Positions 7,212 to 23,902 of a DNA stretch of 44,463 bases are shown piece after piece. This DNA is from Verrucomicrobiota bacterium (GTDB lineage Bacteria > Verrucomicrobiota > Kiritimatiellia > Kiritimatiellales > Tichowtungiaceae). The number at the start of each line of letters is the position of its first letter. Positions within the stretch are counted from its first letter, which is position 1. The position numbers and the translations under genes are program-made. A model generated the notes under the pieces. The model did no database searches, was not told where the DNA came from, and was given only the letters and a program-made list of their open reading frames with translations. Where the stretch lies: positions 1-44,463 of the forward strand of contig JASKKX010000005.1 in assembly GCA_030153935.1 (NCBI GenBank), in the 5' to 3' direction.

Positions 7212-8186
7212 TTGCATTCAAATGAATACATATTTGGATTTTTGGTGGGAACAAACAACAAACATGTTGATTTTTCTGTGAGGGGTTGTCTCGAGCACGG
7301 CGTTTGCGATGCGCGCCATATTCGGGATCCGGAGGCGCTGTCGCTCGTTGCAATGATGCCGGCGACAAAGAGCGATCCGCATCAGATGCTGCGCGATGTG
7401 CTTTCTCTGCTGGAGCGGCGTCGAGGCATGCTCCATTGCACCATTATGCTTCTGACGCCCGATGACGAGGGGTTGGTTCTGGAAGCGGAAAGCGCCAGGG
7501 AGGTGGATGGCGGCACGCTTTTTCCGGATGAGCTCGGTGACTTTTCTCCGGCAATTCAGGTTAACCTGCTACGAGTGATCCCGCAGCGTGAATGCGAACG
7601 GGTCGGCAGCAATAAAACCTTGCAGGCTGATGGGAGTATTGTAACGGCAACCAACCGCGATTTGGAAACGGCCCTGCGGGATGGGGAATTTCGCGAAGAT
7701 CTCTATTACCGTATCAATGTTTTTCCCATTGTGCCGCCTCCACTGTGTGAGCGTCGCAGCGATATCCTGCTGCCGGCCAACCATTTTGTGGAAAAATACA
7801 CAGTGCGCCTCAGCCATCCGGTGCGCCGGATCAGCACGTCGGCCATCAATCTGCTGATGAGTTATCACTGGCCGGGCAATGTCCGTGAGCTGGAAAACTG
7901 TATTGAACATGCAGTGCTTCTCTGTTCAGCGGGTGTCACTTACGGACCCCATCTCCCTCCGGCGTTGCAGACTCCAACGATGGCCGATTGTCCGGCAGCG
8001 GGCAGTTTTAAAACGCTGGTGGATAGGCTGGAGCGTGATCTCATCATCGACGCATTGAAACGGAACCGGGGAAATGTGACAGCGGCGGCGCGCGAATTAG
8101 GCGTTACGGGCCGCATGGTTCGCTCCAAAATTGAAAGGGTGGGGGTGGTTTATGACCGATTCTTTACACGTAAACACAGACGTTGA
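7212..8186 (+). pseudogene. NifA-like sigma-54 activator with the central part deleted
   Basis: The N-terminal third looks like the start of a GAF sensor domain of a NifA-type activator (LSLLERRRGMLHCTIMLLTP). Around 7495-7503 it jumps directly to the middle of an AAA+ domain, VDGGTLFPDELGDFSPAIQV, which holds the Walker B. The rest of GAF, the Walker A (GESGTGKE-type) and the GAFTGA sigma-54 contact loop are absent, roughly 230 residues. The end of AAA+ (NRDLETALRDGEFREDLYYR, YHWPGNVRELENCIEHAVLL) and a Fis-type HTH (RGNVTAAARELGVTGRMVR) remain. The product could neither bind ATP normally nor contact sigma-54, so it is probably a pseudogene, though the frame stays open. The start is uncertain (TTG 7212 or a later codon). 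Confidence 0.8.
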
Positions 8187-8637
8187 AAAAGATGCGTTCT
8201 GGATCCGGCCGGCCGGATCCGATGACCTGGCCGCAATGACCCGGCTCCTTCAGGAATTATTTGCAATAGAAACGGAGTTTGAGGAGGATCCTGAGAAGCA
8301 GCGATGCGGTTTGCAGATGTTGCTGGATTCATCGCAGGCGGGCATTTGGATCGCTGAACGGCGGGGGCGGGTCGTGGGAATGGTGGCGATGCAATTGATG
8401 ATTTCAACTGCCGAAGGCGGACTTTCAGGATTGGTGGAAGATCTCGTTGTCTCATCGGCTTACCGTCGTCGCGGACTTGGCAAAGCACTGCTTGACGCGG
8501 CAGTGCAATGGGCCCGGGAACAGGGGGCCACACAGATTCAGCTGCTGGCCGACGGCCACAATGTTCCGGCTATTATTTTTTACCGCAAGCTGGACTGGAA
8601 ACAGACCAACAGGATCGCGTTGCGACGCTCAATCTGA
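8152..8637 (+). CDS. GNAT-family N-acetyltransferase
   Basis: From ATG 8152 the protein has 161 residues and a single GNAT fold. The acetyl-CoA loop is visible as LVVSSAYRRRGLGKALLDAA, the R-R-G-L-G-K form of the Q/RxxGxG/A motif, and the C-terminal part has NVPAIIFYRKLDWKQ. The acceptor substrate cannot be inferred. The start lies inside the last 35 bases of the truncated NifA-like gene in another frame, so the two are translationally close. This arrangement may predate the deletion in the regulator. Confidence 0.82.
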   Translation: MTDSLHVNTDVEKDAFWIRPAGSDDLAAMTRLLQELFAIETEFEEDPEKQRCGLQMLLDSSQAGIWIAERRGRVVGMVAMQLMISTAEGGLSGLVEDLVVSSAYRRRGLGKALLDAAVQWAREQGATQIQLLADGHNVPAIIFYRKLDWKQTNRIALRRSI

Positions 8638-8657
8638 AGATATAACGCGGGCGTTTT

Positions 8658-9698
8658 TCAGTGGCAGTGACAACAGGTCTTTGTTTTCCGGGGCAGAATC
8701 GCGGCAATGAGCAGTCCGACAAGAACGAGAGCACAAAGCTGCTCGATGTATCCGGCACCGGCGCTGTGCTTTTCAACATGTTCTACAACGGCCACCGCAG
8801 TGAGCATCCGATTGAGCAGCCAGCCGGCAAGCAGGGAGCAGCCGGCAAGTGTAATCAGATAAGTGACAATGACGCGCCGTCCCATGGTCTGAAGCACGGT
8901 TGCAATGGTGGCGGCATTGGTTGCCGGCCCGGTGATCAGAAAAACAAGAGCCGCGCCGGGTGAAAGCCCCATGCCGATCATCGCGAGAGCAATTGGAATA
9001 GAACCGACCGAACAGACGTAAAGCGGAATTCCAAGAGCCATAACAGCCAGCATAGAGAGCCACTCAGAACTTAGATAGCGGACAAAAAAGTCGCCGGGAA
9101 CCAGCGCGCCAAGCAAACCGGATACGAGAATGCCGATCAGAAGGGCACGGCCGATATCGCGCGGCAGGCTGACAAAACCATAAGCAAAAACCTGTTTCCA
9201 CTTGTCGGTTCCGATTTTACAGTTGCAGGAAGGGCAATGTTCGTCGTTGCAGCTGTTCCCGGATTCTTCGGATGGCGGGGTGAACATCTCGACCGCCGCC
9301 CCGCAAATACAACCGGTTACAAATGCGATCAATGTGCGGAAAATTGCGAAGACCGGTCCCAGCAACCCCCATGTGGCGGCAATGCTGTCCACGCCGGTCT
9401 GCGGTGTCGAGGCGAGAAAAGAGATCGTTGCGCCCTTTGTGGCTCCGTGTCTGCGCAGCGAAGTTGCAACCGGAATGACACTGCAGGAGCAAAGAGGAAT
9501 CGGAACGCCCAGCAGTGAAGCTTTTGCAATTTGCCACAGACCGCGTTTGCCCAGATGAGTCTGGATAAACGAAACGGGAACAAATGCGCTGAGCACTCCG
9601 GCAACAAAAAAACCAAGCAGAAGATAGGGGGCCATAATGGCCATGACATCCCATGATTTTATGAAAATTTCTACTGTTTTGCTGACGACTGTTCCCAT
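8658..9698 (-). CDS. Membrane permease of the DUF318 / SO_0444 metal or arsenical efflux type
   Basis: This polytopic membrane protein (346 residues) has about eight to ten hydrophobic segments in two similar halves (PYLLLGFFVAGVLSAFVP; IGRALLIGILVSGLLGALVP). Landmarks are IPLCSCSVIPVA, STPQTGVDSI and ITGPATNAATI, which recur in the predicted permease family that includes ArsP and the SO_0444 Cu/Zn exporters. A Cys-rich cytoplasmic loop (SCNDEHCPSCNCK) and a C-terminal CCHCH tail suggest a soft metal or metalloid cargo. The start is preceded by an AAGGA-type ribosome site. No regulator is adjacent. Metal, trivalent organoarsenical or antimicrobial metal export are all possible. Confidence 0.8.
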   Translation of the reverse strand: MGTVVSKTVEIFIKSWDVMAIMAPYLLLGFFVAGVLSAFVPVSFIQTHLGKRGLWQIAKASLLGVPIPLCSCSVIPVATSLRRHGATKGATISFLASTPQTGVDSIAATWGLLGPVFAIFRTLIAFVTGCICGAAVEMFTPPSEESGNSCNDEHCPSCNCKIGTDKWKQVFAYGFVSLPRDIGRALLIGILVSGLLGALVPGDFFVRYLSSEWLSMLAVMALGIPLYVCSVGSIPIALAMIGMGLSPGAALVFLITGPATNAATIATVLQTMGRRVIVTYLITLAGCSLLAGWLLNRMLTAVAVVEHVEKHSAGAGYIEQLCALVLVGLLIAAILPRKTKTCCHCH

Positions 9699-9915
9699 AA
9701 AAATCCTTTTTCGACAAACTTCGATGCAGATTGCGAATTATTTTATAAAAGGTAATCATAATACTCGGTATTCTTTGAACAAGTTTAAAGCAAAAGGATT
9801 TAAATGAGTACATTCTCCGTCAATCGGAAAACTTTACCGGCACCGTAACCCGTTCGGGACCTGTTGCTGGCAATCCGCTTTTTGTCAGAACGGGGAAATA
9901 TTTCCGGAACCGGAT

Positions 9916-10405
9916 TTATTCCGCACCGACTTGAGTGATTCGATAAAAAGTCAGGTTTGCAAGACTCAGGAAAACCTCCAGCCCGCCGACCCCGTTCCAG
10001 CGGGCATACGCATAGGCCTAAGCGGAAAGCAAAGGACCCGGCGCTCCGCTGATAAAACAGCAGGTCATATAGCTGGCCGTCAGACGGTTCCGCGCTTCCG
10101 GAAGAATTTAAAAAATAGCGTTCTGATGAGCAGCCTGAACCGCCTGCACCGCGAAATCGAGCAGAATAATCCCTACGATAATTCTTTTGCGTTCACAGAT
10201 ATCTGCCAGGGGAATGAGAAACATCAGATCGGTTGCATAGCCGATCTGGGCCACGGTAACAATCAGACCGGCCGGCCCCTGGGTCAGGTAAAACAGACGC
10301 AATCGTATCCAGAAGCGGCTGGGCAATAATAGGTACCGGCAACGGCCCGTCCGGTTGCCACCGCCATCAAATGGATCAGAAAAAGCGGAATTTATGAATC
10401 GGATG
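9916..10405 (-). pseudogene. Decayed major facilitator superfamily transporter
   Basis: Three minus-strand pieces belong to one MFS protein. The first, at about 10340-10385, reads LIHLMAVATGRAVAGTYYC, the TM1 motif. The second, at about 10110-10326, reads QGPAGLIVTVAQIGYATDLM and then FLIPLADICERKRIIVGII, the conserved TM2-loop-TM3 signature. The third, ending at 9916, reads AYARWNGVGGLEVFLSLANL then TFYRITQVGAE, a C-terminus. Frame changes separate them, and several hundred residues of the middle are missing. The original probably exported drugs or sugars. Nothing else is evident in the gap 9700-10615 apart from this relic. Confidence 0.65.
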
Positions 10406-10614
10406 AAGGATGAGATATCCGAGCGTCTTTTTCGGAAAAAAAAAGTCCGAATAAATCATATTGATCCTGAAGACCTGAAGAAAAGATGAGTAAAGAGCAT
10501 AAAAAGACGGCTTCTGATTTCACGGGAAACGGCTGATCATCCCTGTTCAAACCGGTAGTGTTTACCGTTCATTTTACGATTTTAACTTTTGCGGAAACCG
10601 TTAGACTCCGACAG

Positions 10615-11751
10615 ATGAAAATCGGTGTTTCAGCATTTGTAATGCAGGGAGGGCGTTCCGGCGTCGCCGCCTATATCCGCGAACTGGTCCGCCACCTTCA
10701 ACAGGTCGACCGCGTCAATCAGTATGACATTATGATGCCGAGACGTGAAACGGATCTGATTGAACTGAGCTCGTCGAATTTTCACAAATCCCTCTATTCC
10801 GGGTTTACCGCGAATCCGGTGATTAATATCGCGTGGCATAACACGGTTCTTCCCCTCCTTGGAAAAAGAAAAAAAACGGACCTTCTCCATGTGCCGAGCT
10901 ACCGGCGGATTCCGCTGATAAAAAGCTGTCCGGTTGTCGCAACGGTGCACGATGTCGCTGCACTGTCGATGGATGCAAAATATGATGCCGCGCGAATGGT
11001 TTACAACCGCCGGATTGTCCCCGCACAGATTCGCAATGCCGACCATATTATTACAGTGAGTCACTATTCGAAGAAAGATATTACGGAGCGGGTCGACGTG
11101 CCGGAAGAGAAGATTACGGTCATTTATTCCGGTATCAATCACCGGGTGTTCCACCCTTTGGAGAAATCATTTTCCCAGGCGCAGCTCGCTGAAAAGTACG
11201 GCTTGAACCAGCCGTTCCTTATCTATGTCTCCCGGCTGGAGCATCCGGCGAAAAACCACGTTCGGCTGATCGAAGCTTTTGAACGGTTTAAGGCGGAAAC
11301 CGACAGTGCACATAAACTGGTGCTGCCGGGGGCGGACTGGAACGGTGCAGAAATCATCCGCGAACGGGCGGCAGCCAGCCCGGTGCATGATGATATCCTC
11401 TTTCCCGGTTTTGTTCCGCTGTTCGATCTGCCGCTGTTCTACAGCGCCTGCGACCTGATGGTTTTTCCGTCGCTGTTTGAAGGATTCGGCTTTCCGATTA
11501 TCGAAGCACTGGCCTGCGGAGCTCCGGTGATCTGTTCAGATACGTCATCGATGAGTGAAATCGCCGGCGAAGCGGTGCCGAAGTTTGATCCGCATCATGC
11601 AGAAACTATTTTCCAGTCGTTGCAAGAAACGCTCTCCCGGGGATGGAGTGATGAAGAGCGCCGGCGCGGTCTTAAGTACGCCGAACAGTTTGACTGGAAT
11701 CACGCGGCGCGGCAAACTCTCGAAATCTACGAAAGGACCGCCGGATTGTGA
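10615..11751 (+). CDS. Glycosyltransferase family 4 (GT-B fold)
   Basis: From ATG 10615 (MKIGVSAFVMQGGRSGVAAY) this is a 378-residue GT-B enzyme with an N-terminal Gly-rich acceptor domain and a C-terminal nucleotide-sugar domain. The second domain shows LIYVSRLEHPAKNHVRLIEA at about 215-234 and the E-x7-E motif in EGFGFPIIEALACGAPVI at about 305. These are typical of retaining GT4 enzymes such as mannosyltransferases acting on surface polysaccharides. The donor and acceptor sugars cannot be told. It opens a five-gene operon in which every junction overlaps, here by GTGA at 11748-11751 with the following GT2 gene. A longer in-frame start at 10558 exists but lacks family similarity. Confidence 0.9.
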   Translation: MKIGVSAFVMQGGRSGVAAYIRELVRHLQQVDRVNQYDIMMPRRETDLIELSSSNFHKSLYSGFTANPVINIAWHNTVLPLLGKRKKTDLLHVPSYRRIPLIKSCPVVATVHDVAALSMDAKYDAARMVYNRRIVPAQIRNADHIITVSHYSKKDITERVDVPEEKITVIYSGINHRVFHPLEKSFSQAQLAEKYGLNQPFLIYVSRLEHPAKNHVRLIEAFERFKAETDSAHKLVLPGADWNGAEIIRERAAASPVHDDILFPGFVPLFDLPLFYSACDLMVFPSLFEGFGFPIIEALACGAPVICSDTSSMSEIAGEAVPKFDPHHAETIFQSLQETLSRGWSDEERRRGLKYAEQFDWNHAARQTLEIYERTAGL

Positions 11752-12587
11752 GTCGTGTCGCCGTCATCATGCGTTCAAAAAACGAGATGCCCTATCTTTC
11801 GAAGGCACTCGAAAGTCTGCGCCGCCAAACTTTTCAGGATTTTGAGCTGTGGGCCGTCGACTCCGGCTCGACGGATGGTTCTGTCGCGGTGCTCCGCGAG
11901 CAAATCGACTCAGAACATCTGATTCAGATCCCGCCGGAAGCGTATATCCCGGGCAAGGTGCTTAACGAAATGATTGCGCGTACCACGCAGGAGTTCATTG
12001 TCTTACAAAATGCCGATGCCGTTCTGCGGAGCGATGACGCACTCGAAAAACTGCTGCATCCGCTGCTGGAGGACGAAGCCGATGTCTCGATGTGCAAGCA
12101 GGTACCGCGCCCGGACGCTCTCTTTATTGTGACGTATGATTATCTGCGCGCCTACAATCCGAAAAATATCAAAGGCGGCAATGCTGATTTTTTCTCGGCC
12201 GTTACCTGCGCGTTTCGCCGGAATCTCTGGGAGAAAATCCGGTTCCCCGAGAACGGGTACGCGGAGGACGTTGCCTGGGCAAAAGCCTGTCGGAATCGGC
12301 GGGCACGCTTTACACTGGTTGCGGAATCCGGCGTTGAACATTCACATAATTACACGTTAAGAAGTCTTTACCATAAAAGGTTCCGACACGGAGTAACGTT
12401 CGCAAAAATATATGGACGGCGCGCCAACCTGTTTTTCCAGATGCTGGAACTGGGCAAAGAATGGACCCGGGATTTCCTTTATGCCGTCCGCAAAGGACGG
12501 TTTGATACAATTCCCTATAATCTGGCCTATCGCGCAGTGATTCATACCGCGCTTTACCGCGGTCTGAAAGCAGGTGCCCGTGGGTAA
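11748..12587 (+). CDS. Glycosyltransferase family 2 (GT-A fold)
   Basis: This 279-residue enzyme begins at GTG 11748, overlapping the stop of the GT4 gene. The GT-A fold shows VAVIMRSKNEMPYLSKALES at the start, the donor-binding Asp in WAVDSGSTDGSV at about residue 40, LQNADAVLR (DxD-like) at about 87, and the acceptor-side segment YAEDVAWAK at about 170 matching the ED catalytic-base region. No transmembrane segment is seen, so it should act at the cytoplasmic face on a lipid-linked or protein-linked glycan. It overlaps the next gene by 14 bases. Confidence 0.9.
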   Translation: MSRVAVIMRSKNEMPYLSKALESLRRQTFQDFELWAVDSGSTDGSVAVLREQIDSEHLIQIPPEAYIPGKVLNEMIARTTQEFIVLQNADAVLRSDDALEKLLHPLLEDEADVSMCKQVPRPDALFIVTYDYLRAYNPKNIKGGNADFFSAVTCAFRRNLWEKIRFPENGYAEDVAWAKACRNRRARFTLVAESGVEHSHNYTLRSLYHKRFRHGVTFAKIYGRRANLFFQMLELGKEWTRDFLYAVRKGRFDTIPYNLAYRAVIHTALYRGLKAGARG

Positions 12588-13689
12588 ATACTCTGTTAAC
12601 GGATCTGCCGCGTTTGACGCGCGTATTGATACAGATATGAGCCGCATTGCCGAGGCGGTGTATGCGTCCGAGTTTTCCAGATACTGGCGGGCACTGGTGC
12701 TGCTCGGCGGGTATGGACGCGGGGAAGGCTCCCCGCTGATTGGTCCCGGCGGGGAAGAACTGCCCTTCAATGATTACGATCTGATTGTGGTAACCGACTC
12801 CATGGATCCGCTTCTTAAACGGGATCTTAAAAAACTGGAAAAAAAACTCTCCGAAGAAATCGGCCTTCCTGTCGATCTCTATCCGTATCTGAAACAGAAA
12901 CTGCCCAAGTGCGAATTTTCGCTGTTGAACTATGAAATGAAATACGGTCACCGGGTGATTCGCGGCGACAAAGATATTCTCGATGCCATGCCGGATTATC
13001 CGCATGAAGGCATTCCTCTTTCCGAAGGAACCCGCCTGCTGATGAATCGCGGGAAACTGCTGCTCGATGTCAAATGCCGACTTGCACAGCCTGAGCCCTT
13101 AAATGCAGAAGAGCGGCAGTGCTGCCTGAAATTTATGTCCAAAGCCGATCTCGCCTTCGGCGACTGCGCCCTGCTGCTGCACCGGGCTTACGACCTTTCG
13201 TACACCGTGAAAAAAGAAAGAATTAAAACGATCAGCCTGAGTGGGCTGAAAGAACCGCACGATCTGGTACACGCCTATCGCGCCGCGGTCGCATTCAAGG
13301 AGCGCACCGATTTTCAAACCCTGGAAAACAGCAATGTCCACCAGCGGTTTGATGAGACGGTCAGACGATACGAACGGGTCTTCCTCTGGTATGAACAGCG
13401 ACGATTGAACCGGGAGTTCCAAACCCCGGAAAAATATGCAGGGAACTTTCCAAATCTCGGGAAAGAGGGATCGCCGCTGAAAAACGCCGTCCAGAACCTG
13501 CGTACATTCGGAGCGGGAGCTTTTCCCGGACTGTTTACCCATCCGCGGCTGCGGCTGTATGCCGCACTTCCGCTGCTGCTGACCAAACAGGCGGACCTCC
13601 GCAGGATCCGCCCGCTGCTCAATTCGTCGCAGGATCGCTTTGAAGAATTGTGCGCCGTGTTTTATTCTCTTCAAAAGAGATTTTCATGA
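12574..13689 (+). CDS. Nucleotidyltransferase-fold protein of unknown role in a glycan operon
   Basis: The protein (371 residues from GTG 12574; GTG 12580 is equally possible) has an N-terminal module with the DNA polymerase beta-like nucleotidyltransferase signature. LVLLGGYGRGEGS at about 47-59 is the G-G/S helix motif, and FNDYDLIVV at about 70-78 supplies a D-x-D metal site. A third acidic residue may be the Asp of LPVDLYPYLK. The rest is mostly helical and Arg-rich with no family I recognise. It could transfer a nucleotide or another phosphorylated group to a sugar or a partner protein, but the substrate is unknown. It is embedded between GT2 and the phosphatase-fold gene with overlaps on both sides. 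Confidence 0.6.
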   Translation: MPVGKYSVNGSAAFDARIDTDMSRIAEAVYASEFSRYWRALVLLGGYGRGEGSPLIGPGGEELPFNDYDLIVVTDSMDPLLKRDLKKLEKKLSEEIGLPVDLYPYLKQKLPKCEFSLLNYEMKYGHRVIRGDKDILDAMPDYPHEGIPLSEGTRLLMNRGKLLLDVKCRLAQPEPLNAEERQCCLKFMSKADLAFGDCALLLHRAYDLSYTVKKERIKTISLSGLKEPHDLVHAYRAAVAFKERTDFQTLENSNVHQRFDETVRRYERVFLWYEQRRLNREFQTPEKYAGNFPNLGKEGSPLKNAVQNLRTFGAGAFPGLFTHPRLRLYAALPLLLTKQADLRRIRPLLNSSQDRFEELCAVFYSLQKRFS

Positions 13690-14840
13690 AGAAATCGAAA
13701 CTGAGCCTGTTCCTGTTTATCGATGCCTTCGGGCGGGAGATTTTTCTCCGGCATCCGTTCTTTTTGAACAGCCGGGTGGTCGATAATAAAAAACTCGATA
13801 CGATTCTCGGCTATTCTTCAGCGTGCGACCCGTCCATTATTTCCGGGAAACTGCCTTGCGAACACCGGATGTGGTCGTCGTTCTATTACGACCCCGAAGG
13901 TTCGCCGTTTAAATGGACCCAAGCGCTATCAATTCTTCCCGATTCGATTTTCCGCCGTGGACGGGTGCGGCATTATCTGAGCAGAATCATAAAAAAATCG
14001 TTACGATTCACCGGTTATTTTCAGCTCTACGGCGTACCGTTTAAAGATCTTCCCCTTTTCAATTACGCTGAAAAAAAACGGATTTGGGAGCCGGGCGGCT
14101 TGCTGCGCGGGGAAAGCATTTTTGATGAACTCGCGCGCCGCGACATCCCGCACTATGTCCATGACAGCGCAGTAAATGATGAAACAAAACTGGCGCGCCT
14201 CACCGCCGAGATTGAAACGCAGCGGATTGATTTCGCCTACTGCTCCCTCGGCAGACTCGATGCACTGATGCATGCTGTCGGTACACGGGATGAAAAAGTA
14301 ACGGAACGGATCCGGTGGTATGACAAACAGCTGTCCCGATTGATTTCAACGGCGGAAGAGCAGTACGAAGAAGTCGCCTGGTATGTTTTTACCGATCACG
14401 GCATGCATGATGTTACTGCAGGATACGATCTGATTGCCGACATCGAAAAGACCGGACTTCAGTGGAACAGTGATTATGTCGCGTTTTACGACTCCACGAT
14501 GGCGCGCTTCTGGTTTCTTAAAAAAGGTGCGCGTGAAACCATCACCGCCGCACTTTCCGAACATCGGAAAGGCCGGATTTTATCGGATGAAGAACTCAAA
14601 CGGGAGGGGGTTCTGTTTGAAGACGGCATGTACGGAGAACTGGTCTTCCTGATGAATTCGGGAATTCAGATTGTGCCGAGTTTTATGGGGATTAAGCAGA
14701 TCAAAGGAATGCACGGATATGCCCCGGCCGATGCGGACTCCGCCGCATCAATCTGTTCCAACCGGAAACTGCCGCGGGACTTGACAAAGATTCATCAAAT
14801 CTATCATCTAATGCGGAAGGAGCTTGGCTGCTGTGACTGA
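13686..14840 (+). CDS. Alkaline-phosphatase-superfamily protein (phosphodiesterase/transferase-like)
   Basis: From ATG 13686, overlapping the previous stop by ATGA, the protein has 384 residues. It carries metal-site motifs of the alkaline phosphatase superfamily: FIDAFG at about 11-16, GYSSACDPSIISGKLP with a nucleophile-region Ser/Cys at about 46-60, a D-x3-H-x2-G segment in LDALMHAVG, YVFTDHGMHD at about 235, and MHGYAP near the C-terminus. This is the order in type I phosphodiesterase/nucleotide pyrophosphatase enzymes. No signal peptide or membrane segment is seen, so it is probably cytoplasmic, which is uncommon for the family. It may add or remove a phosphate-linked group on the glycan built by the two glycosyltransferases. 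Confidence 0.7.
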   Translation: MKKSKLSLFLFIDAFGREIFLRHPFFLNSRVVDNKKLDTILGYSSACDPSIISGKLPCEHRMWSSFYYDPEGSPFKWTQALSILPDSIFRRGRVRHYLSRIIKKSLRFTGYFQLYGVPFKDLPLFNYAEKKRIWEPGGLLRGESIFDELARRDIPHYVHDSAVNDETKLARLTAEIETQRIDFAYCSLGRLDALMHAVGTRDEKVTERIRWYDKQLSRLISTAEEQYEEVAWYVFTDHGMHDVTAGYDLIADIEKTGLQWNSDYVAFYDSTMARFWFLKKGARETITAALSEHRKGRILSDEELKREGVLFEDGMYGELVFLMNSGIQIVPSFMGIKQIKGMHGYAPADADSAASICSNRKLPRDLTKIHQIYHLMRKELGCCD

Positions 14841-15501
14841 AAAATCCCAGGAATTGTCTGTAAAAGATAAAGATGCTGTTTTGATCATCGATGATGATGC
14901 CTTCATGCTGAAGGTACTCTACCGGGTTCTGCAGAAAGAGTATACACTGTATCAGGCCGGTTCTTCAGAAGAGGCTATAGAAGTGCTGCGCGGACGGCAC
15001 GTCAAAGCGATCCTGTGCGATCACGTCCTTCCCGGACAAAGCGGGCTCGACTTTCTCATCACGTTGAAACAGCGTAATCCGCAGATCAAAAGTGTTCTTT
15101 TCAGTGCCGCACTGGAAGTCGAGCAGTTTATCAAGGCAATCAACGAGGGACAAATATTTCGCTTTATCAAAAAACCGGCGTCGCCGACCGATATCCAGCA
15201 GGCGGTTCGGGCTGCTGTGCGACAATACGATATTGAAGCTCTGCAGCAGCAGCTTTTGCGCGATCAGAAAGACATCGATAAGCAGGTTTACAGCGCCCCA
15301 TACTGGCTCTACCGTCTGCGTGTCGTTGCCCGGCAGTCATTCCGCTACGGCGCGCCTCTGTTCGGCAATATTCTGGCCCTTATGCTCGCGCTGGGCGTTA
15401 TCGCCCTGAGTGTCGGCATCTGCATTATACTCATCATCTATTTTGTAAAAAGTTATCTGGGCATCGACATTTTCCCCCAGAGTCATCTTCTGAGCCGTTA
15501 G
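14833..15501 (+). CDS. Receiver-domain protein with a C-terminal membrane anchor
   Basis: GTG 14833 is chosen because AAGGAG at 14817-14822 stands ten bases upstream. The TTG at 14824 is too close to that site. The 222-residue product has a CheY-like receiver (about 15-130) with the acidic pair in VLIIDDDAFML, the phospho-acceptor Asp in AILCDHVLPGQSGLDFL, and the conserved Lys in FIKKPAS. After a helical stretch rich in Gln (IEALQQQLLRDQKD) there is no DNA-binding or enzymatic output. A single strong hydrophobic segment of about 25 residues (LALMLALGVIALSVGICIIL) lies near the C-terminus. It is the last gene of the operon. Phosphorylation may control the membrane-associated glycan enzymes directly. 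Confidence 0.8.
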   Translation: MTEKSQELSVKDKDAVLIIDDDAFMLKVLYRVLQKEYTLYQAGSSEEAIEVLRGRHVKAILCDHVLPGQSGLDFLITLKQRNPQIKSVLFSAALEVEQFIKAINEGQIFRFIKKPASPTDIQQAVRAAVRQYDIEALQQQLLRDQKDIDKQVYSAPYWLYRLRVVARQSFRYGAPLFGNILALMLALGVIALSVGICIILIIYFVKSYLGIDIFPQSHLLSR

Positions 15502-15844
15502 TTTCTCGCGACTCCGTTTCGGACCTGATTCCGAGTACACCCGGGATCGTGCATTGTTCGAAGGTTCTGTCTGAATACTCCGCATAAAGAGGCTTCGAAT
15601 TTCTCCTGCGAATTCAGTTTAACAAAGTCCCCTCACCGGAAGCAGATGAGGCTCCATTGAACGGTTGGAGCGTCCCAATCAGATAGCGATCTGTTTTCCC
15701 AGCAGGATGGGCAGGGTGCTTCGGAAGAAAAAATGATCAGAAGGTATATTCGCGAGCAGAAGATGCAGCAGATTATGCAGAAGGCCGGAAGCCACGGGCG
15801 TTAGCCCGTGGATCTGTCCCTTTTCCGATAAAAGTAACAGAAAA
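15502..15844. other. Intergenic region with a GC-rich hairpin
   Basis: This gap of about 340 bases after the receiver gene has no convincing gene. Its one clear structure is a perfect hairpin at 15792-15811, CCACGGGC-gtta-GCCCGTGG. It resembles the foldback structures at the ends of IS200/IS605 elements and in REP-type repeats, but no transposase gene is recognisable beside it. The short in-frame peptide just before it (MIRRYIREQKMQQIMQKAG) could be a transposase scrap, though that is weak. Confidence 0.4.
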
Positions 15845-15872
15845 GCGGAATTTCCAACGTGGGAAACTCCGC
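15845..15872 (-). terminator. Terminator of the rubrerythrin gene, built from a TTTCCAA palindrome
   Basis: An imperfect inverted repeat runs from GCGGAATTTCC at 15845 to GGAAACTCCGC at 15872. On the minus strand it is followed by CTTTTCTG, making a plausible rho-independent terminator 22 bases past the rubrerythrin stop. Its core TTTCCAACGTGGGAAA (15851-15866) matches the palindrome family seen elsewhere in the window. Confidence 0.6.
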
Positions 15873-15894
15873 ATTTCCATTGGCAAAGGATCTT

Positions 15895-16467
15895 TTACCA
15901 GTTTTCAGCGAGCAGTTCAAAATGTGCCTGGGGATGATCACAGGCGGCACATTTGGCTGGTGCTTTTGTTCCAACGTGGAGATATCCGCAGTTCCGGCAG
16001 CGCCAGACAACTTTTTCTTCCCGCTGAAAGACCTTGCCTTCTTTGATATTGGCAGCCAGTTCAAGATACCGTTTTTCATGTTGTTTTTCCGCTACAACGA
16101 TGGCGCTGAACACGGAAGCAATCAGGATAAAACCCTCTTTTTTTGCAATCTCGGCAAAAGAGGGATACATATCTGTCCACTCATGGTTTTCACCCGCAGC
16201 ACTGGCCAGCAGGTTGTCGTATGTGGTGCCGACCGGGCCGGCAGGAAAGCGGCTGGCAATCTCGATTTCTCCGCCTTCCATCAAGTTGAACAGACGTTTG
16301 GCATGCTCTTTTTCCTGATTGGCTGTTTCTTCAAAAATGTCGGCAATCTGTACGTAGCCTTCTTTTCTAGCTGCACTAGCACAATAGGTGTAACGGTTGC
16401 GGGCCTGCGCTTCACCGGCAAATGCCGCCATCAGATTTTTTTCTGTCTGGCTTCCTTTAAGTTCCAT
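15895..16467 (-). CDS. rbr: Rubrerythrin
   Basis: This 190-residue protein combines an N-terminal ferritin-like diiron four-helix domain with a C-terminal rubredoxin-like domain. The diiron domain has E/ExxH ligands in AFAGEAQARNRY, ANQEKEHAKRLF, AAGENHEWTDMY and AEKQHEKRY. The rubredoxin part has CRNCGY and CAACDHPQ Cys pairs at about 155-180. It is the classical peroxide-reducing rubrerythrin of anaerobes, taking electrons through rubredoxin in the cytoplasm. The start has an AAGGAG site. It stands alone between the receiver operon and pdxJ and has its own terminator. It argues for an oxygen-sensitive lifestyle. Confidence 0.95.
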   Translation of the reverse strand: MELKGSQTEKNLMAAFAGEAQARNRYTYCASAARKEGYVQIADIFEETANQEKEHAKRLFNLMEGGEIEIASRFPAGPVGTTYDNLLASAAGENHEWTDMYPSFAEIAKKEGFILIASVFSAIVVAEKQHEKRYLELAANIKEGKVFQREEKVVWRCRNCGYLHVGTKAPAKCAACDHPQAHFELLAENW

Positions 16468-22473: not shown

Positions 22474-23643
22474 ATGAAAAAATGCTTTTTGACTCTTCCT
22501 CTTGTCTGCATCCTTGCACTTTGTCTGACCGGGGCCGCCCGGGTTCAATTACCGGAAGTGCGCGCCGTCTGGGTAACGCGCTTTGATTATAAATCTCCGT
22601 CCGACGTGTCCGCCATCATTGCCAACTGCGCGCGGGCAGGTTTTACGGATGTCTTTTTTCAGGTTCGCGGCAACGGCACCGTGTTTTATCCCAGCCGGGT
22701 GGAGCCGTGGGCGTTTGAGCTTTCCGGAAAAGATGTTTCTGCGACGGGCCGCAATCCCGGCTGGGATCCTCTGCGGACGGCAGCTGATCAGGCGAAACAG
22801 GTCGGGGTTCGCCTGCACGCCTATATCAATGTGCTTCCCGGCTGGCGGGGCCGTGAAGATCCGCCGCGGGCGGCCGGACAGCTCTGGACCGCACATCCGG
22901 ACTGGTTTATGATCGATTCGACCGGAACTCGGATGAGAGCGACAAGCCGCTGGTATTCCTTTGTCAATCCGGCACGTCTGGACGTGCGCCAGCACCTGGC
23001 GCAACTGGCTGCGGAGCTTTCAGGTTATGATCTGGCCGGTCTGCACCTCGACTATATCCGGTTCCCTTACGACTATAAGGGCGTCGCGCGCGAAATTTAT
23101 CCGGATACTTCGCCGGAGGAGCTGAAGAAACACTCCGATTTTTCATACGATCCGACTTCGATTTCAATGGTCCATAAACAGTACGGACGGAAGGTTTCAC
23201 AAAAAGAGTGGAATACTTTTCGCCGAAAATCGGTCACTCAGGTTGTCACGGATCTGCGGCAGATATTCAAAAACCGGCGGGGTCCGCAGGCCGTCATTTC
23301 AGCCAGTGTAATGGCCGATTTCGATGACGGCTATAGCACGGCTTTTCAGGACAGCTGTCACTGGGCAAAAAAGCGGATTGTCGACTGGCTGGTGCCGATG
23401 AATTATAATGCGAGGCTTTTTGACGCCCGGCTGAAAAAAATGTGTCATGAACTCGGTCGGCGTTCGACCCGCCAGCAACTGGTGGTCGGGATCAACTGCA
23501 ATGCGCAACCGGAAGAAATCCGACGCCAGATTGCCGCGGTTCGCGCCGCCGGCTGCCGCGGCTTTGCGTTGTTCGCTTATTCTTATCTCTTCGAGAATCA
23601 TCGGCCGACCGACAAGGCACGTGCACTGATGCGGTCACGATAG
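22474..23643 (+). CDS. Secreted glycoside-hydrolase-like protein (GHL10 / YngK type)
   Basis: ATG 22474 gives a clean signal peptide (MKKCFLTLPLVCILALCLTG); in-frame ATG 22456 and TTG 22447 are possible longer starts. The mature protein (389 residues in all) matches the GHL10 family of predicted TIM-barrel hydrolases: EVRAVWVTRFDYKS, FTDVFFQVRGNGTVFYPS, HAYINVLPGWRG, FVNPARLDVRQHL, LAGLHLDYIRFPYD with the probable catalytic Asp, and VDWLVPMNYNA. Members are thought to act on peptidoglycan or other glycans outside the cytoplasm, but few are characterised. It is divergent from the tol operon and shares its palindrome-rich intergenic region. Confidence 0.85.
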   Translation: MKKCFLTLPLVCILALCLTGAARVQLPEVRAVWVTRFDYKSPSDVSAIIANCARAGFTDVFFQVRGNGTVFYPSRVEPWAFELSGKDVSATGRNPGWDPLRTAADQAKQVGVRLHAYINVLPGWRGREDPPRAAGQLWTAHPDWFMIDSTGTRMRATSRWYSFVNPARLDVRQHLAQLAAELSGYDLAGLHLDYIRFPYDYKGVAREIYPDTSPEELKKHSDFSYDPTSISMVHKQYGRKVSQKEWNTFRRKSVTQVVTDLRQIFKNRRGPQAVISASVMADFDDGYSTAFQDSCHWAKKRIVDWLVPMNYNARLFDARLKKMCHELGRRSTRQQLVVGINCNAQPEEIRRQIAAVRAAGCRGFALFAYSYLFENHRPTDKARALMRSR

Positions 23644-23644
23644 A

Positions 23645-23902
23645 TAGCGCCTGTCCAAAAAAAGATGGCACCCTCGTCGTGTACATGAGTGGTCCTCCGG
23701 CGGTCAGCGGTACATCTGCGTGGCAGTGTCGGCATTGCAGCATTCGAGATCGCGTCGCTCTCCGTTGCGCTTTATCGATCATACCGCATGAAGGGCAGGT
23801 GAATTCTTTCGGTCGCCGAATTTCTTCAAGATAGGCGATACGGTCACTTTCGCTGGGAAACATCCTCTGAAACTCAAGCAATGACTGCGGAGTTTTATGC
23901 AA
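23645..23902 (-). pseudogene. N-terminal fragment of an IS1595-type transposase
   Basis: Reading from ATG 23902, the sequence SLLEFQRMFPSESDRIAYLE, then FTCPSCGMIDKAQRR, then MLQCRHCHADVPLTAG matches the N-terminal zinc ribbon of IS1595-family transposases (two CxxC pairs). Similarity stops near 23660 at the junction with the end of the GHL10 gene. The DDE catalytic domain is entirely missing. It is an insertion sequence remnant. Confidence 0.75.

Follow-up and report, generated by a model that had tools for sequence, protein, structure and literature searches.

Five open reading frames form a run at positions 10615-15501 of the window, the whole 44,463-nucleotide stretch of Verrucomicrobiota DNA analysed here (Table 1). 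All four junctions overlap, as had been claimed from the letters alone, by 4, 14 or 8, 4 and 8 bases in order, with a GTGA overlap between GT4 and GT2 and ATGA between the nucleotidyltransferase (NT) and the alkaline phosphatase superfamily protein (AP). The GT2/NT overlap is 14 bases from the NT start at 12574 and 8 bases from a GTG at 12580, which gives an NT of 369 aa; the latter start is favoured because NT relatives start with MGKY. The receiver gene, read from the GTG at 14833, overlaps AP by 8 bases, and a TTG at 14824 is an alternative start. The order GT4-GT2-NT-AP-receiver was the same in all four other genomes of the genus for which the region was fetched (L061-L064), which argues against a gene order made by chance. 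A scan of positions 9700-15900 found a lone sigma-70-like promoter site, inside GT2, which is fewer than in shuffled sequences (mean 5.4), and 10 terminator-like sites against 8.0 in shuffles.

Table 1. Genes of the five-gene run, with positions in the window.
Product	Positions	Strand	Length (aa)	Status	Pfam
GT4 glycosyltransferase	10615..11751	+	378	core	PF00534/PF13439
GT2 glycosyltransferase	11748..12587	+	279	core	PF00535
NT, polymerase-beta-type nucleotidyltransferase with C-terminal helical part	12574..13689	+	371	core	PF01909
AP, NPP-type phosphodiesterase of the alkaline phosphatase superfamily, predicted cytoplasmic	13686..14840	+	384	core	PF01663
Receiver domain with C-terminal membrane segment	14833..15501	+	222	accessory	PF00072

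The identities proposed by the sequence-only reading for GT4, GT2, NT and AP were confirmed by Pfam, with 99 bits for GT4 (PF00534), 72 bits for GT2, which may be rhamnosyltransferase-like, 24.1 bits for NT (cut-off 21) and 52 bits for AP (cut-off 23). The receiver domain scored 66 bits. None of GT4, GT2, NT and AP has a 19-residue stretch with a Kyte-Doolittle mean above 1.6, and the C-terminal hydrophobic segment of the receiver protein reaches a maximum of 3.0 over 19 residues. The membrane receiver described earlier has this hydrophobic C-terminus but is not part of the conserved core. Copies 83-89% identical lie downstream of AP in L061-L064, and strong matches were seen in the genus only, with one weaker match (118 bits) right after AP in a Lentisphaerae record (L121); the receiver was therefore rejected as a core member and is an accessory gene. 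Other types of signalling gene are found repeatedly in the vicinity of AP. A kinase that would provide a phosphorylated precursor was likewise rejected as a core member, as it occurs in 27 of 288 phylum genomes, 18 of which also have AP; in the window's own genome none was seen at E<=1e-30, which counts against the module proposed below.

NT carries the motif GGYGRGEG and the acidic residues D67, D69 and D101, the combination of a G-G/S motif and three acidic residues that marks the polymerase-beta-type superfamily. Across 36 sequences, D67 was kept in 32 (N in 4), D69 in 32 (E in 4 others) and D101 in 31 (E in 5). In the predicted structure (AF2, mean pLDDT 95.9), the top Foldseek matches were aminoglycoside nucleotidyltransferases, followed by HalB and MNT, at 10-16% identity and with TM scores of at most 0.44 over the query among the 50 matches listed. 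NT is therefore closest in fold to the aminoglycoside enzymes and MNT, and its likeness to the former is one of fold only. Like the aminoglycoside enzymes and MNT, it has an NTase domain, bearing G-G-Y-G-R-G-E-G and D-x-D, and after it a helical part; unlike them, it stands in a context of glycan synthesis and not of resistance or toxin-antitoxin function. Against PDB sequences the single NT sequence gave chance-level matches only and the NT profile none at E<=1, and an NCBIfam scan assigned no family.

The putative active site of AP is strictly conserved: D13, S44, D192, H196, D237, H238 and H343 were invariant in 43 of 43 sequences, and together they make up the two-metal set of NPP and ENPP enzymes (D, Ser/Thr nucleophile, D, H, D, H, H). 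The AP model (AF2, mean pLDDT 95.8) matched ENPP6 and Xac NPP best in a Foldseek search of the PDB (best E 3.8e-17), and rows 1-17 were all NPP or ENPP chains, with TM scores of 0.63-0.70 over the query at 13-15% identity. A profile search of PDB sequences led to ENPPs and Xac NPP as well, and placed S44 opposite a Thr of ENPP7, presumably the nucleophile, with AP positions 70-147 unaligned to ENPP7; searched singly, the AP sequence had chance-level PDB matches only, and NCBIfam gave one weak, chance-like match. NPP enzymes act on many nucleotide phosphodiesters. AP shares with Xac NPP and ENPP6 the fold, the metal ligands and the position of the Ser/Thr nucleophile, but differs from them in sequence, in its company of glycosyltransferases and NT and in its predicted location. 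A secreted or membrane-bound ecto-enzyme does not fit, as AP contains no hydrophobic stretch and its metal ligand D13 lies so close to the N-terminus that no signal peptide would fit. AP is thus predicted from its sequence to be a cytoplasmic protein with the NPP fold and a conserved active site, in agreement with its earlier description as cytoplasmic-looking; NT, too, is predicted to be cytoplasmic. For want of a membrane segment by hydropathy, a membrane phospho-group transferase of the EptA, LtaS or OpgB type, whose AP domain is periplasmic and anchored in the membrane, was rejected.

PorX is a receiver fused to a PglZ-type AP domain. The operon resembles it in bringing together a receiver and an AP-superfamily protein, but here these are separate genes, and AP had no match to PglZ at E<=1 in Pfam, matching PF01663 instead, so that a PorX-type identity was rejected. 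The AP relative of a Cloacimonadota locus (L172) has a weak PglZ match below the cut-off.

The view that the products belong together was borne out by the distribution of the genes across the phylum. Among 288 genomes, 74 have AP (E<=1e-10) and 74 have NT (E<=1e-8), 72 having both and 212 neither (Fisher 6e-63, with relatedness ignored); the genus-level tallies of this survey are 38 and 40 of 152. NT adjoins AP (<300 bases) in 22 of the 72. In nine, the two genes lie on the same contig at least 20 kb apart (for example 139 kb in G010 and 3.9 Mb in G083) and in 18 they are on different contigs, which indicates that the pairing is not explained by close linkage alone; separation is shown by the nine same-contig pairs only, since draft contigs set no distance. 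The glycosyltransferases follow the same distribution, the GT2 profile (A5) matching 70 genomes at E<=1e-55, of which 69 also have AP, and the GT4 profile (A6) matching 68 at E<=1e-90, of which 66 do, counts that depend on thresholds of our own choice. All four families occur in 62 of the 288 genomes and none of them in 211.

For AP loci outside Verrucomicrobiota, a whole-genome search found NT in 22 of 25 genomes; it covered 25 of the 30 outside-phylum loci (leaving out L138-L141 and L143), two of the 25 (L149, L156) being titled only 'bacterium', and L126, L132 and L160 are in neither list. The order of G317 counts against a strict pairing: among its 119 genomes, AP was found in 6 (E<=1e-40), NT in 11 (E<=1e-8) and both in 5, one of them via a weak partial NT match, so that 6 of the 11 NT genomes are without AP. 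Five of these six were fetched, and three of them (L183-L185) have a divergent NT within a row of rse/degP/lepA genes. One scan of viral contigs gave no stretch matching the NT patterns, and tblastn gave no match of AP in plasmids.

A scan of genome contigs confirmed 453 AP relatives among 511 pattern matches, and the best 80 of the 453 were analysed. NT was present at 45 of these 80 loci and adjoined AP at 30. It is conceivable that AP is a housekeeping enzyme that clears NDP-sugars or stray nucleotidyl by-products, with NT as a separate precursor step and the co-occurrence due to a shared pathway only. The closeness of its fold to Xac NPP and the ENPPs would suit such a task, and GT2 and GT4, which lack a chemical link to AP, show a co-occurrence with it nearly as tight as that of NT. 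However, the frequent adjacency of NT and AP, both in the phylum and at these loci, and the retention of NT in most AP genomes examined outside it speak against this, and we regard it as unlikely.

The surroundings of the relatives point to glycan assembly, the setting suggested by the sequence-only reading. Of the best 80 loci, 35 contain one or more clusters labelled as Wzx, Wzy, Wzz, Wza or an initiating transferase, and 45 contain none within the stretch examined; these cluster counts are approximate, as the clusters are BLAST communities of greedily called ORFs, annotated via single representatives. The ORF caller missed AP in 5 of 41 neighbourhoods (L074, L076, L079, L081, L090), which the BLAST map covers, and the AP proteins of the genome contigs, which fell into many small communities, were tracked by HMM instead. 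Neighbours of AP named by Pfam include pyruvyl transferase, flippase, Wza, WecG/TagA, sugar transferase, Wzy and Wzz, and assembly-gene neighbourhoods span several phyla. The L172 locus runs from a sugar transferase through STAS, an LbH fusion and a PRK-type kinase to NT and AP, after which come Wzz and Wza, both assigned by cluster label. AP relatives were also found in Pontiella sulfatireligans (L109), Lentisphaera marina (L125) and Thiohalocapsa halophila (L134). Within the phylum, the neighbourhoods examined besides the window come from 38 of the 74 genomes that have AP; a further AP locus in G225 and the G299 locus were added to these.

The operon might instead serve a different surface glycan, such as lipopolysaccharide or protein glycosylation. 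Beside it in the window no export, assembly or initiation gene was seen, and in the mapped Kiritimatiellales loci few or no assembly genes adjoin the module, which favours that reading. Nevertheless, Wza, Wzz, Wzx and Wzy accompany more distant relatives, and the window's own genome encodes initiating transferases (PF02397 on contigs C62 and C25) and Wza-type export proteins (PF02563 on C100 and C38), including a Wza pair on C100, which makes a different glycan improbable.

On C62, the sugar transferase lies beside an LbH/sugar-transferase fusion and a receiver-SpoIIE protein, and receiver, STAS or SpoIIE clusters occur, by approximate labels, at 46 of the best 80 AP loci. These genes raise the possibility of a protein switch, in which NT would nucleotidylate a glycosyltransferase or the initiating sugar transferase, lowering exopolysaccharide synthesis, and AP would reverse this, with the receiver and SpoIIE/STAS proteins as input. 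The chemistries of NT and AP are formally opposite, the window's operon ends with a membrane receiver, and the receiver-SpoIIE protein adjoins an initiating transferase. Against this, the two best fold matches of NT modify small molecules, though the protein-modifying MNT is also among the matches; moreover, regulators of the polymerase-beta type, such as GlnD, usually have sensor domains, and Pfam recognised none in NT. We therefore hold such a switch to be doubtful, slightly more so than the housekeeping role. We know of no NT-AP pair in the Vibrio fischeri syp locus. The recurrence of STAS and SpoIIE proteins near AP relatives resembles the STAS- and SpoIIE-type control of that locus by SypA/SypE (PMC4517449), and the receiver-SpoIIE protein of the window's genome adds to the likeness; the operon differs in having a membrane receiver in this place.

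Taken together, we estimate at about 50% the probability that the operon is the core of a conserved, undescribed exopolysaccharide module of the Wzx/Wzy type in which NT and AP carry out successive steps on a phosphodiester. We infer that the two enzymes share one phosphodiester; most likely they perform two successive steps that install a phosphate-linked substituent, although the pair could run as installation or as removal. GT4 and GT2 would assemble part of a lipid-linked repeat unit at the cytoplasmic face of the membrane. NT would use an NTP to nucleotidylate a hydroxyl, either of the repeat unit or of a small precursor, a transfer proposed because of its fold, which is like that of the aminoglycoside enzymes. 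AP would attack the resulting phosphodiester via Ser44, resolve it and leave or pass on a phosphate-bearing group before the repeat unit is flipped outward. The receiver may tune the module, as other signalling proteins beside AP may do elsewhere. Only tentatively do we propose the specific cytoplasmic route, in which a nucleotide is placed on a sugar hydroxyl of the repeat unit and resolution through an enzyme-bound phosphoserine yields a phosphate-linked exopolysaccharide substituent. The nucleotide- or phosphate-linked substituent suggested earlier is one of several mechanisms that fit the data.

The module resembles Wzx/Wzy-dependent exopolysaccharide systems in that many relatives have Wza, Wzz, Wzx, Wzy and initiating sugar transferases as neighbours, but the window's operon is set apart from assembly genes. 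Literature searches found no described system of this type with an NT-AP pair, nor a name or assigned function for the module, and the words 'nucleotidyl' and 'phosphodiesterase' are absent from the main text of the Pontiella exopolysaccharide paper (PMC7356697). Pfam, NCBIfam and PADLOC scans also gave no known pathway for NT and AP, and the two genes co-occur elsewhere, as the conserved-neighbourhood check proposed earlier has shown, so that neither of the refuting outcomes named by the sequence-only reading came about. Anti-phage defence was rejected, since in PADLOC GT4, GT2, NT and AP were unmatched at E<=0.01 and the receiver had one weak match (1.2e-05). If true, the two-step route would be a form of glycan decoration, or of nucleotide marking and unmarking, for which the literature searches gave no described counterpart, and the slime polymers of these bacteria would bear a phosphate- or nucleotide-linked group of a kind that may escape routine sugar analysis. 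The unnamed module is widespread, with AP in about a quarter of the sampled genomes of the phylum, nearly always with NT, and the set is also found in other phyla. The type I phosphodiesterase annotation of NpF5236, in a cyanobacterial scytonemin-associated cluster (PMC2726228), belongs to another context.

The four-gene set of GT4, GT2, the nucleotidyltransferase (NT) and the NPP-type phosphodiesterase (AP) is a real, conserved module. A single set of 288 Verrucomicrobiota genomes was used for all five profile searches, in which AP was found in 74 genomes (E<=1e-10), NT in 74 (E<=1e-8), GT2 in 70 (E<=1e-55), GT4 in 68 (E<=1e-90) and a PRK-type kinase in 27 (E<=1e-30). AP and NT occurred together in 72 genomes, AP and GT2 in 69 and AP and GT4 in 66; all four families were present in 62 and none in 211. 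AP was found without NT in two genomes, G150 and G153, where the AP matches are weak or partial, and NT without AP in two others, G061 and G202. The Fisher values for co-occurrence assume independent genomes and hence overstate the significance. Tallied by genus, AP and NT were present in 38 and 40 of 152, so their agreement extends beyond one genus. The two genes lay less than 300 bases apart in 22 of the 72 genomes, up to 3 kb apart in 3, up to 20 kb in 20, up to 50 kb in 7 and at least 50 kb in 2; in the remaining 18 they are on separate draft contigs, which do not set the distance between them.

Within the order, the arrangement GT4-GT2-NT-AP-receiver is conserved in all four fetched genomes of the genus (loci L061-L064). 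NT is present in 29 of the 40 nearest relatives, a count that includes the window's own genome and two weak matches, in G288 (1.7e-15) and at a second locus of G225 (2.9e-14). NT and AP remain adjacent in the neighbouring family, where several loci have a protein of about 1400 residues with receivers between GT4 and GT2, identified by Pfam in L066 as a PAS histidine kinase. The more distant locus L073 carries two Wza proteins, a flippase and a pyruvyl transferase followed by GT4-GT4-GT2-NT-AP; L078 resembles it, with no Wza within the fetched stretch. Besides its main copy, G225 has a second, divergent row of PRK-type kinase, GT4, AP and NT (L099:7434-11782), and in G194 the NT match is split over two separate frames (L077:8206-9332).

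The sequence-only reading had described five overlapping genes in the window, and these frames were borne out when reading frames and junctions were re-checked. AP has a single match in this genome (2.04 Mb, 93% complete; the window is its contig C92). The flanking genes look unrelated to the operon. Some upstream neighbours are listed in the table; from translations, we take others to be FabZ/LpxA-like and GspE-like genes, and those downstream, on the opposite strand, to be a rubrerythrin-like gene and Tol-Pal-type genes. In the NtrC-type gene, Sigma54_activat is matched over profile positions 90-167 of 168 only, which suggests that its ATPase domain lacks the front part, and judged from its sequence the gene is probably degraded. 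A short frame with zinc-ribbon-like cysteines, 23492-23902 (-), resembles by eye the start of an insertion-sequence transposase.

Genes upstream of the five-gene operon
Feature	Position	Strand	Basis
NtrC-type gene, degraded-looking	7212-8186	+	Pfam Sigma54_activat match
GNAT gene			Pfam search or translation
ArsP-type permease gene			Pfam search or translation

The folds are known, and no description of their combination was found in the literature searched. The AP model (mean pLDDT 95.8) has ENPP6 and Xac NPP as top structural matches. None of its seven catalytic residues varies among the 43 sequences compared. R95, Y111, Y115, E129, D263, D269, T271 and R274 are invariant as well, and this second group suggests a specific substrate. 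For the NT model (mean pLDDT 95.9), two PDB matches, at 3.9e-4 and 7.2e-4, passed E 0.001; both are structures of aminoglycoside nucleotidyltransferases with neomycin, and HalB, MNT and ANT-3,9 follow at weaker E-values. A second conserved set in NT (G125, H126, G131, N158, R159, K190, G196 and D197) probably belongs to the acceptor site. What NT and AP do together chemically is the testable question that the module raises.

In two Cloacimonadota loci, L154 and L172, a PRK-type kinase stands immediately before NT and AP, and in L085 and L186 it immediately precedes NT, a position that fits a sequence of kinase, nucleotidyl transfer and phosphodiester. However, just 18 of the 74 AP genomes matched the kinase profile, which would make the kinase no more than an optional supply step.

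To look beyond the phylum, genome contigs were scanned; 453 AP relatives were confirmed among 511 pattern matches, and the spread is described for the best 80 of them. Their titles include Thiohalocapsa, Shewanella benthica, Arcobacteraceae-type Campylobacteraceae, Cloacimonetes, Hydrogenedentota, Riflebacteria, Acidobacteria and Sumerlaeota. For 25 of the AP loci outside the phylum, the whole genome was searched for NT, which was found in 22, the misses being G320, G324 and G336. Within the fetched stretches of 30 loci listed as non-phylum, NT was present in 9, GT2 in 7 and GT4 in 11; by cluster label, Wzx was seen in 16, Wzy in 16 and Wzz in 14. The glycan context of the module is well supported, though with exceptions among the loci. 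In the order of G317 (119 genomes), AP was found in 6 genomes (E<=1e-40), NT in 11 (E<=1e-8) and both in 5, one of which, G419, counts by an NT match that is weak and partial; in G324 AP was found and NT was not. AP thus predicts NT widely, and the NT family is the wider one. Five of the six NT-only genomes of this order were fetched, leaving out G430. By cluster labels, the loci L183, L184 and L185 hold a divergent NT (109-118 bits) within a common gene row, and the search of this order found no AP in their genomes. Pfam names RseB in the L183 row and, in L184:6777-16829, RseB, RseC, NT, a PDZ-domain protease, LepA, signal peptidase, RNase III and an Era-like GTPase; this NT is an uncharacterised nucleotidyltransferase, and the row around it resembles an envelope-stress operon. 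In a Lentisphaerae record (L121:8938-10930), with no NT or GT2 match within the fetched stretch, a receiver directly follows AP and matches the profile of the window's receiver with 118 bits.

By approximate labels, 46 of the best 80 loci contain receiver, STAS or SpoIIE clusters, and in example loci Pfam verified receivers, STAS proteins, and SpoIIE together with HATPase. STAS proteins are reported to control exopolysaccharide in Vibrio fischeri (PMC4517449). On contig C62 of the window's genome, an initiating transferase comes after a protein of receiver-SpoIIE-HATPase type and an Hpt protein. A WecG/TagA/CpsF-type glycosyltransferase is fused to STAS domains in two module loci (L083:1198-2661 and L078:7677-9299). 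Single proteins in L172:5839-7230 and L194:7888-9324 combine a left-handed-beta-helix part with a weak bacterial sugar transferase match, just below the cut-off in L194. A full initiating sugar transferase lies nearby, and proteins of this kind recur in module loci and in the window's genome. Shortly before AP in L167 lies a DUF3485 protein (8182-8778), presumably of the exosortase-associated EpsI type, hinting at a link to exosortase-type exopolysaccharide loci.
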